Source: Actinomycetota bacterium (GTDB lineage: Bacteria; Actinomycetota; Actinomycetes; S36-B12; UBA5976). Taken from it: a DNA stretch of 64,000 nucleotides. The stretch covers positions 142,869 to 206,868 of the forward strand of contig JAPLBY010000022.1 in the NCBI GenBank assembly GCA_026392515.1, given 5' to 3'. Every line of letters starts with the position of its first letter. The stretch's first letter is position 1. The notes beneath the pieces are model-generated. The model saw only the letters and a program-made list of their open reading frames with translations. It did not search any database and was not told the DNA's origin. A program made the translations under genes and the position numbers. Of the stretch, positions 57,339-62,525 are shown piece by piece.

Positions 57339-58694
57339 CTACTCCGGTCCAACAACTGCAGTAAGTCGATCTTGTGACCATAGTTGATGCGCAAGTGAAT
57401 GAACTTCGTCCAATGTCACAGCGGACACCCGGTCAAGTACTTCGGATACAGAAGGCACATATCCATTGTTCATCTCGGATCTAGCAATTCTGCTCATTCG
57501 GGAAGAAGTGTCTTCCAGACCCAGAACCATGCCACCACTTACTTGGCCCTTGGCTTTACTCAACTCCGCAGCGGTGATCCCGTTTTTAGCCACATCATCA
57601 AGCACATTTGTAATAACTTCTCGAACTTGATCCAAGTTCTTGGGACTGCATCCTGCATACACGCCTGCCATACCAGCATCTTGAAACTGTTGGCCGAAGG
57701 AATAGACGGTATAAACAAGTCCACGCTTTTCGCGAACTTCTTGGAACAAACGGCTAGACATGCCCCCGCCTAGTGCAGCGTTGAAGACTGACTGAATGTA
57801 GCGACGCTCATCGGCTCGGTCTAGGCCTGGTACCCCAATAACAAGGTTTGCTTGTTCAGTTGTCTTGTCTTGCTTAACGTAGCCACCAGTTTGTAGAACT
57901 TTAGTTTTATGCTTCATCGAAACATATGGGCTTTGGTCCCCATCAAGGGCAAAGCCACCTTGATTGAACGCTTTCCGAACTAACTTAACTACGGTTGCGT
58001 GATCGATATTTCCCGCCACCGCAACTATCAAGCGATCCGGTGTGTAGTACTTCTTGTAAAAGCCATTTATTGATCGACGCGATAGTGATGAAATATTCTC
58101 AACAGTTCCAAGAATGGATCGGCCCAATGGAGCGTCGCCAAACATAGCTTTGGAGAATTGTTCATGCACTAAATCAGCTGGATCATCATCGCGCATAGCT
58201 ATTTCTTCCAAAACAACTTGGCGCTCTTGATCCACATCAACTGAAGTAATTGTGGCGGAAGTAATCATGTCAACTAGAACATCAATTGCTTGCGGGACGC
58301 TGGTATCTAAAACTCGGGTGTAGAAACAAGTTACTTCTTTGGAAGTAAAGGCATTCATTTCACCACCGACTGCATCAATAGTTGATGAGATGTCTAGGGC
58401 GCTGCGTGACTTAGTCCCCTTGAACAACAAGTGCTCTAAGTAGTGTGCAGAGCCAGTCTGCGAGGCAACTTCATCGCGAGAGCCAATGTTTACCCAAATG
58501 CCAATCGCTGCCGATCTAACAGATGGCATTTGCTCAGTGATAATTCGAAGTCCGCCAGTCAATACTGTGCGCTTTACCAAACCGCCTTGCTCGGCGGTCA
58601 GTAACGTGCGAGTGGTCCCTGGGCGTTGTTCATGCCCAAGGACCACTGCGGAGTTTCGTGATGTCACGGTTTTAGTCTTCGTCTCCAGCGTCAT
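57339..58694 (-). CDS. M16-family zinc metallopeptidase (PepR-like)
   Basis: [11 protein letters not shown] (HxxEH) motif; conserved pnp-M16-dapB context. Confidence 0.92.
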
Positions 58695-60888
58695 CTGCGC
58701 TTTCGTCTGAACCTTCTACTACAGGTACTAGGGACAGCTTTCCACGTGGATCGATTTCGGCGATCTCAACGTGGACCTTGTCACCAACCTTGAGAACATC
58801 TTCAACATTCTCTACGCGCTTGCCACCGGAAAGCTTGCGTAGCTGACTGATGTGAAGCAAGCCATCCTTACCAGGTGAAAGTGAAACGAAGGCACCGAAG
58901 TTAGTTGTCTTAACAACTGTTCCCATGTAGCGCTCGCCTACTTCTGGCATGGTTGGGTTTGCAATAGCGTTTACCTGGGCGCGAGCAGCATCTGCTGCTT
59001 CACCATTAGTTGCACCGATGTAAACCGTACCGTCATCACCAATGGAAATGTCAGCACCAGTTTCTTCTTGAATCTGGTTGATGATCTTGCCCTTTGGACC
59101 AATAACTTCACCAATCTTGTCGATTGGAATCATTACTGTGATGATGCGCGGTGCGTACTGCGACATTTCATCTGGAGCATCAATTGCTTCTAGCATTACA
59201 TCCAAGATCGCAAGACGAGCTTCGCGAGCCTGTGTTAGCGCACCAGCCAATACTGAAGCTGGGATACCGTCAAGCTTGGTATCTAGTTGTAGCGCTGTGA
59301 TGAAATCCTTTGTACCTGCAACCTTGAAGTCCATGTCGCCAAAGGCATCTTCAGCGCCAAGGATGTCGGTAAGTGCAACATACTCAGTCTTGCCGTCAAT
59401 TTCATCGGAGATCAAACCCATTGCAATTCCAGCAACAGGTGCCTGAAGTGGCACACCTGCATTAAGAAGCGAAAGCGTTGAAGCACATACAGAGCCCATT
59501 GAAGTGGAACCGTTTGAGCCTAAAGCTTCCGAAACCTGACGGATTGCGTATGGGAAGTCCTGCTTTGTAGGCAGAACTGGAACCAAAGCACGCTCAGCCA
59601 ACGCGCCGTGACCAATTTCGCGACGCTTCGGGCTACCTACACGACCAGTCTCACCAGTTGAGTAAGGCGGGAAGTTGTAATTGTGCATGTAGTGCTTGCG
59701 AGTTACTGGAGACAAAGTATCTAGTTGCTGTTCCATTTTCATCATGTTCAAGGTTGTTACGCCAAGAATCTGAGTCTCGCCACGTTCGAACAATGCCGAA
59801 CCGTGAACGCGAGGAATTACATCTACTTCAGCACTCAAGGAACGGATGTCGCGAAGGCCACGGCCATCAATACGAATCTTGTCCTTGATGACGCGCTTGC
59901 GAACTAGCTTCTTGGTTAGTGAGCGAAGTGCTGCACTAACTTCCTTTTCGCGACCTGCAAAGTTGCCAGCTACCTTTTCGATAGTCAGTTCTTTAACGCG
60001 GTCTAGTTCAGTTTCGCGCTCTTGCTTGCCAGCGATAGTTAATGCCTTGGCTAAATCATCAGAAACTGCGGCTTCAACGGCTGCGAAGACATCAGCTTCG
60101 TAATCCAAGAAGACTGGGAATTCTGCGGTTTCTTTAGCTGCAACATCAGCAAGTGCTGACTGAGCACGACACAATTCAGCGATGAATGGCTTTGCAGCTT
60201 CAAGGCCTTCTGAAACAACTTCTTCAGATGGAGCCTTAGCGCCACCCTTGATCAATGCAATTGTGTTTTCAGTGGCTTCAGCCTCAACCATCATGATTGC
60301 AACGTCATCGCCAACAACTCGACCAGCAACAACCATGTCAAAGACTGCATCTTCAAGCTGACTATGTGTTGGGAATGCAACCCACTGACCGTTAATTAGT
60401 GCAACGCGAACGCCACCAATTGGTCCGGAGAATGGCAAACCTGCAAGCTGTGTAGACATAGATGCAGCGTTGATTGCAATTACGTCGTAAAGCACATCTG
60501 GATTTAGTGCCATTACGGTTACAACAACCTGAACTTCATTGCGAAGTCCCTTAACGAATGATGGACGCAATGGACGGTCAATTAGACGGCAAGTCAGAAT
60601 TGCGTCTTCGGTTGGACGACCTTCACGTCGGAAGAATGATCCTGGAATACGTCCAGCAGCGTACATACGCTCTTCGACGTCCACGGTTAGTGGGAAGAAA
60701 TCAAACTGATCTTTAGGTGATTTTCCTGCAGTAGTAGCGGATAGCAACATTGTGTCGTCATCCATGTAAACAACTGCGGTTCCGTTTGCCTGACGTGCAA
60801 GACGTCCGGTTTCGAACTTAACTGTGCGCTTTCCGAATGACCCATTGTCAATCACAGCAACGCTGGTCTGTACTTCGTTACCCTCCAT
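58672..60888 (-). CDS. pnp: Polyribonucleotide nucleotidyltransferase
   Basis: RNase PH repeats, KH ([21 protein letters not shown]) and S1 domains. Confidence 0.97.
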
Positions 60889-61133
60889 GGGTAACCTCCC
60901 TCTTCATAAAGGGATAACACTGCACTTCTAACGAGTGAAATGCATTCAAATCACATGTCGATCTTCGATCGAGAAGCGCGGCTCATTGAGCCGAACTTCA
61001 CTACCGAGGACCGACCAAACTGCTCGAATGTGCGTGCTATCCGCGGTTATCGCAAAACTGCGAGTCTTGATTTTGTGCTTGCTGTGCCAACACGAAATCG
61101 GCACAGCTCACTTCCTAAGAAGCGCACGAAAAG
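60889..61133 (-). other. Structured rpsO-pnp intergenic spacer / pnp leader
   Basis: Contains GCTGTGCC-N11-GGCACAGC (61081-61107) and CGGCTC-ATT-GAGCCG (60979-60993); no convincing ORF. Confidence 0.6.
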
Positions 61134-61403: not shown

Positions 61404-61462
61404 AGATTTTTTCCTCTCGGGCGCGAACAGATCCGTAGATCTTTAGATGTGACACGAGATGT

Positions 61463-61476
61463 GGGGCGCCCGCCCC
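61463..61476 (-). promoter_or_regulatory. GC-rich hairpin in the presumed rpsO leader
   Basis: ggggcg-cc-cgcccc about 60-70 nt upstream of the rpsO ATG. Confidence 0.4.
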
Positions 61477-61513
61477 TCATTCGTCTGTGTTGTAAGGCTA
61501 ACAGTTAGGGGTG

Positions 61514-61591
61514 GGTACCGCGAAATCCATGGATTTCGTGCAATAGGTACCGCGAAATCGTCAGAATGAGCCCGATCGGTGCAGCGAAATC
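61514..61591. repeat. Three 14-bp direct repeats at exact 32-bp period, upstream of rpsO
   Basis: GGTACCGCGAAATC at 61514-61527 and 61546-61559, GGTGCAGCGAAATC at 61578-61591. Confidence 0.85.
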
Positions 61592-61604
61592 GTGAGATTG
61601 CGCC

Positions 61605-62525
61605 CTAATTCAGGTACTTTTCCAGGTCAGCTTTGGCAGTTTCCACGTCGCGATCCATAGCTTCTAGTAATTCTGGGATGCCAGCAAAGCTCTCCATGTC
61701 CCGAATGTGCGAGACGAAGTCCAAATCCACGACTTTGCCATATAGGTTCAGGCCAGATTCACCAATTACATAAGCCTCGACTCGGCGATTAACTACATCG
61801 TCAAATGTTGGATTAGTGCCCACGCTGATTGCAGAACTATGGGCTACTCCATCAATCCATAGCAATCCTGAATAGACGCCATCTGCTGGAATCAGCAGGC
61901 CGCCCTGTACATCAATGTTGGCGGTTGGATAGCCGATTTCTCTTCCTCGATGGTCACCATGAACTACTTCACCTGAAACTCGGTGCGCTCGACCCAATAA
62001 GCCGTTTGCCCCTTCAACGTGTCCCTTCAAGATCGCAGTGCGAATTCGAGTTGATGACCATGCTGTTGAGTCACCGACTAGGTCAACAATGCGAACTTCG
62101 AATCCAAACTTCTTTGCCAGTTCTTGAAGTGTTTCAACTGTGCCACTGGCACCATGTCCAAATCTAAAGTTTCGGCCGACAATAACAACTTGCGCATTCA
62201 AGGCACCTATCAATATGTCTTCTACAAACTCATCGCTGGACATGTGTGCCATTGCATCTGTGAATTTCAAAGTCTCAACGTGATCCACGCCGTTTTCCAG
62301 AAGAAGTTTTGCGCGTCGCTGCGGAAGGGTAAGTAATCCGGCAAATGAATCTGGTCGCAGAAATGCCTTGGGCGGCGGATCAAATGTCGCAGCAGTTAAA
62401 GTGCCATTGATGCTGTTCGCAATACTTTTTGCGATACCAAGCACCTGACGGTGGCCAGCATGGACTCCATCAAAGACACCAATGGTGACAACTACTGGTA
62501 CATTTGGACTACTCATTAGTTGCAA
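61605..62525 (-). CDS. ribF: Bifunctional riboflavin kinase / FAD synthetase
   Basis: IGVFDGVHAGHRQVL, VVGRNFRFGHGASG, GREIGYPTANI. Confidence 0.94.
   Translation of the reverse strand: MQLMSSPNVPVVVTIGVFDGVHAGHRQVLGIAKSIANSINGTLTAATFDPPPKAFLRPDSFAGLLTLPQRRAKLLLENGVDHVETLKFTDAMAHMSSDEFVEDILIGALNAQVVIVGRNFRFGHGASGTVETLQELAKKFGFEVRIVDLVGDSTAWSSTRIRTAILKGHVEGANGLLGRAHRVSGEVVHGDHRGREIGYPTANIDVQGGLLIPADGVYSGLLWIDGVAHSSAISVGTNPTFDDVVNRRVEAYVIGESGLNLYGKVVDLDFVSHIRDMESFAGIPELLEAMDRDVETAKADLEKYLN

Follow-up and report, generated by a model that had tools for sequence, protein, structure and literature searches.

Near one end of a 64-kb stretch of an Actinomycetota genome (hereafter the window), a short motif recurs at even spacing in the 201-bp gap between ribF and rpsO. 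What is this array, and what relation does it bear to the expression of rpsO? The initial annotation took it for a phased operator array built from an unrecognised motif. We followed up this proposal by comparing the locus with its counterparts within the genus and across the class; the features of the locus are collected in Table 1.

Table 1. Features of the truB-ribF-rpsO-pnp locus, in window coordinates.
Feature	Position	Strand	Basis
truB, ribF, rpsO, pnp	last kilobases of the 64-kb window	minus	sequence and position (names of truB and ribF)
ribF ORF, 306 aa from TTG, upstream neighbour of rpsO	61605..62525	minus	ORF listing; relatives
rpsO, ribosomal protein S15, 89 aa	61134..61403	minus	ORF listing; relatives
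pnp	58672-60888	minus	
Unit 1, promoter-proximal, with GATTTC inside (plus strand GAAATC, 61522-61527)	61509..61540	minus	
Unit 2, motif copy 61546-61559, without a -10 box at matching distance	61541..61572	minus	
Unit 3, motif copy 61578-61591, adjoining the ribF stop codon	61573..61604	minus	
Extended -10 box TGTTAGCCT of the predicted rpsO promoter	61495..61503	minus	sequence; form conserved in relatives
Predicted rpsO leader with conserved GACGAATG..GGGGCGGGCGCCCC..GCGCCCGAGAGGA element	61404..61488	minus	alignment by eye

Copies of the motif GGTRCMGCGAAATC lie at 61514-61527, 61546-61559 and 61578-61591, with a spacing of exactly 32 bp. When the window was searched for equally spaced triples (two identical 14-mers and a further copy with at most two mismatches), one occurrence was found, and none in 200 shuffled versions made by splitting the window into 3-base pieces and permuting their order; the three copies with a 32-bp period originally reported for this gap are therefore real. 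The motif is also rare. At up to one mismatch, the whole 1.69-Mb genome holds five sites, three of them the array copies and two of them singletons, which places the motif above background in the genome-wide check that had been suggested. As a genome-wide operator the full 14-mer was rejected, since elsewhere it is represented by only the two singletons, each with one mismatch.

The best parsing of the array is into three 32-bp units, which together span 61509-61604 and run up to the ribF stop codon. Its self-identity at lag 32 is 45/68 (0.66), compared with 0.41 at the next best lag tested, and by eye the 18 bp following copy 2 agree with the 18 bp following copy 3 at 12 of 18 positions. The spacers had been described as unrelated; given the lag-32 identity this is only partly right, because it applies to the spacer adjoining the promoter, the only one that has diverged, but not to those after copies 2 and 3. 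The copies are thus head-to-tail repeats of one unit, as are the whole-unit repeats of two relatives (G014 and G015, below). Neither a general repeat search nor Tandem Repeats Finder flagged the array. CRISPR arrays have repeats of ~23-50 bp, unique spacers of similar size and cas genes nearby; a CRISPR array was rejected here on unit structure, the shared motif being 14 bp inside a 32-bp unit and the spacers being related.

On the rpsO strand the core of the motif reads GATTTC, and its proximal copy lies 21 nt from TAGCCT, which is itself preceded by TG and so forms an extended -10 box (TGTTAGCCT). In every readable promoter of the genus, the single-copy ones included, 20 or 21 nt separate GATTTC from the downstream -10 box, and this distance is kept whether the core is non-coding or falls within the last codons of ribF. 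The extended form TGnTAnnnT has a conserved position ahead of the leader, whose GACGAATG..GGGGCGGGCGCCCC..GCGCCCGAGAGGA element is present in all genus members (alignment by eye) and, judged by its position, appears to match the S15-binding leader of Actinobacteria (PMC4137082). The rpsO transcript is predicted, by distance only, to start near 61488 and to carry an 85-nt leader. Such a start is consistent with the one reported for Mycobacterium tuberculosis, where the S15-binding leader begins ~10 nt before its first helix (PMC4137082). Neither the rpsO leader stretch nor the array matched an Rfam family. At 61521-61538 the proximal core and an inverted copy of it form an 18-bp perfect palindrome, CGAAATCCATGGATTTCG.

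While the position of the core is constant, the number of copies is not. There are three copies in the window genome (G000) and in G015, two in G032 and G017, four in G014 and one in the other members of the genus, among them G004, G010, TE-Jun18, G018, G006 and G007. The 3/2/2 copies of G000, G032 and G017 are found despite ribF end branches of only 0.016-0.031 changes per site. The period is 32 bp in most members and 31 bp throughout G014, where two adjacent units are nearly identical, and in both G014 and G015 the repetition spans the whole unit. Copy number that shifts between one and four among close relatives, together with the period of 32 or 31 bp and the nearly identical G014 units, therefore constitutes minisatellite-like behaviour. 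The proposed check of sister genomes accordingly gave a divided answer, with multiple copies in G032, G017, G015 and G014 but a single one in G004 and G010, and the array as such is not conserved across relatives, many of which have one copy. Only one clade and one promoter carry it, and outside the genus no second GATT[TC]C at a spacing of 29-34 bp was found, in a survey that included the M. smegmatis upstream region, and we know of no tandem copies of the element at M. smegmatis rpsO. These counts come from sequence comparison, as does our evidence throughout, among genomes of one genus that are not independent and many of which are fragmentary MAGs; in G001 and G013 a contig breaks off within or next to the gap, which makes array length unreadable there. 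G001 has two rpsO genes (L013, L035) on two contigs with differing upstream regions, probably representing two populations in one bin; the G013 locus is L008.

Taken together, we think it likely that the array is an unstable minisatellite, derived by duplication of a 32-bp stretch that contains the -35-region element of the rpsO promoter, with the proximal GATTTC as the working copy. The distal copies would have arisen by slippage or unequal recombination. As in bacterial promoter VNTRs and minisatellites, short head-to-tail units of variable number lie beside a promoter; unlike them, the unit here, about three helical turns in length, includes the -35-region element of the promoter itself.

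The core itself extends well beyond the genus. Among 118 rpsO upstream stretches from outside it we located 91 extended -10 sites. At 32 of these, the end of GATT falls 22-23 nt before the -10 box, whereas all other offsets combined gave 6 matches, and a profile of 88 outside-genus promoters has its sole upstream information peak at about -42 to -32. Approximately two-thirds of the outside-genus promoters are without GATT at this position, several carrying TTTGGG-like forms instead. The rpsO promoter of M. smegmatis has an extended -10 box and no definable -35 (PMC8470358), and a published primer starting at -47 (TCCTGCGCGATTCTG; PMC8470358) has its GATT at the corresponding position, -39 to -36. 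The promoters of the genus thus resemble the mycobacterial rpsO extended -10 class in having TGnTAnnnT, no canonical TTGACA and GATT at -39 to -36 (PMC8470358). The papers that we read describe neither a conserved GATT(T)C(G) between -39 and -33 nor its sharing with tRNA promoters, and a search with the motif letters returned nothing relevant.

Such sharing was seen in 18 class- and order-level genomes, where CGATTN{19,20}TGNTANNNT gave 51 matches and its reversed control 12 (table sums; raw counts, kinship ignored). We examined 38 non-rpsO matches to CGATT-N19/20-TGnTAnnnT, five of them from genus members: 24 sit 10-47 nt upstream of a same-strand tRNA gene, for which a rough count puts the chance per match at <0.001, and one match to the CGATT pattern lies ~230 nt upstream of a 16S rRNA gene. 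Because the patterns were designed after the rpsO promoters had been seen, the rpsO counts are descriptive and do not amount to a test; the association with tRNA genes does not depend on that design. In diverse Actinomycetes the pattern precedes tRNA-Leu, -Lys, -Ala, -Asn and -Arg as well as a 16S rRNA (L304 (G249:C35), L286-L309, L353-L370). The window's own genome has CGATTTC-20-TAAGGT 14 nt before tRNA-Val, and by eye several of its other tRNA genes have sequence resembling ATTTC or GATTG at about that distance. As a general promoter element of this genome the core was rejected: CGATTTC N18-20 TANNNT gave 7 matches versus 14 in the reversed control, over a gap range too short to include the 21-nt gap of the window itself, and GATT N18-19 CTGNTANNNT matched at rpsO alone. 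Judged by this distribution, the GATTTC core is older than the array, a promoter feature that rpsO shares with tRNA genes across actinobacteria.

Because the core holds a fixed position at rpsO within and outside the genus and is shared with tRNA promoters, we read it as a -35-region element of translation-gene promoters and not as an unknown operator. The idea of a free-standing, unrecognised operator was consequently abandoned: most of the genus has the element in single copy, and much of the class has it at the same position. The proximal GATTTC (approximately -39 to -34) and the extended -10 TGnTAnnnT would together make up a promoter type used by rpsO, many tRNA genes and at least one rRNA operon in Actinomycetes. 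The likeliest contact of the proximal core would be with housekeeping sigma factor region 4, or with a protein bound beside sigma. In Streptomyces avermitilis the -35 consensus is BTGACN and spacer lengths peak at 19 nt (PMC8780764). A -35 hexamer (TTnnnn) starting at the TT of GATT would have a spacer of 18-19 nt, about the same as in the S. avermitilis sigma-type promoters; this fit makes sigma region 4 the simplest reader, although the sequence here is GATT-n-(C)GG and there TTGAC (PMC8780764). A separate activator reading the proximal core is possible. Signals of the -35 region in Actinomycetes are said to be poorly defined, and if the element lets RNA polymerase favour translation genes, it would offer a concrete handle on growth-linked transcription. 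On its own the array is little more than an evolutionary curiosity, but it leads to a promoter element that accompanies rpsO and tRNA genes across the class.

What, then, do the distal copies do? They have no TAnnnT at the right distance and are therefore not extra promoters, and duplicate promoters were rejected as an explanation. Their effect may be small, or they may offer RNA polymerase or a helper protein weak additional contacts upstream. The GATTTC core is invariant in 9/9 distal units, whereas the remaining columns show 0.30 differences per column pair (column permutation p = 0.004), in a test whose units share descent, whose columns were picked post hoc and in which the 5' half of the unit is also conserved; this invariance hints at selection on the distal copies. 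That the minisatellite is instead wholly neutral, with distal copies that have no effect and a core kept identical by recent duplication and homogenisation, has only slightly less than an even chance in our estimation: the rapid change of copy number among close relatives and the two nearly identical adjacent units of G014 favour it, but the core is better conserved than the remainder of the unit and the array is limited to one clade and one promoter. Upstream sequence does affect the strength of a mycobacterial rpsO promoter, as shown in M. smegmatis, where lengthening the core promoter from -47 to -117 and -231 raises its strength and the authors suggest unknown upstream activator sites (PMC8470358). 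Since full strength there requires sequence upstream of -47, upstream contacts at rpsO promoters are plausible in general. The one-to-four copy series in sister species is a natural test of how upstream copies influence promoter strength.

If each copy bound a regulator, a period of 31-32 bp would keep the proteins on one face of the DNA, from which they could activate or repress rpsO-pnp. Three helical turns span 31.5 bp at 10.5 bp per turn, and the core-to-core distances are 31 or 32 bp or multiples of these; all copies therefore lie near one helix face, as the initial annotation held. The same even period is, however, expected without selection for phasing, because the whole 32-bp unit was duplicated, and although helical phasing appears compatible with the data, the difference between 31 and 32 bp is too little variation to show selection. 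The invariant distal cores, the maintained spacings and the M. smegmatis upstream effect (PMC8470358) argue for a phased operator; against it, one copy suffices in close relatives, a second core is lacking outside the genus and no candidate protein was found. We consider this reading unlikely. What survives of it is that a rare motif forms an array directly upstream of the rpsO promoter, and that sister species carry the array too, but not as a free-standing operator. The P1 promoters of E. coli rrn operons have Fis sites upstream, in phase. If the distal copies bind anything, rrnB P1 with its several in-phase Fis sites at a translation-machinery promoter would be a parallel, except that here single-copy relatives exist. 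To our knowledge, no Fis occurs in Actinobacteria.

Less probable still is a functional stand-in for Fis in Actinomycetes, a dedicated activator or RNA polymerase helper that would read CGATT(T)CG(G) near -36 at rpsO, tRNA and rRNA promoters, its sites multiplied in helical phase in this freshwater lineage and their copy number tuning S15 output between species. As the binder, mIHF was rejected; its authors report no common binding motif (PMC6155035). We give very little credence to an RNA element, in which the array would be transcribed by read-through from ribF and act as hairpins (e.g. CGAAATC with GATTTCG): the 18-bp palindrome and possible pairing between units would allow this, but the gap taken as a whole has an ordinary folding energy (z = -1.35), the palindrome occurs in G000 and G032 only, and the conserved core follows the -10 box rather than any RNA feature.

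Two RNA features were noted downstream of the promoter. A hairpin 3' of rpsO (61079-61105, minus strand; GCTGTGCC-GATTTCGTGTT-GGCACAGC, by eye) has GATTTCG in its loop. The rpsO-pnp gap contains an Actino-pnp RNA (60957-61015, minus strand; Rfam RF01688), a known cis-regulatory element, which scored 63.5 bits, above the gathering score.
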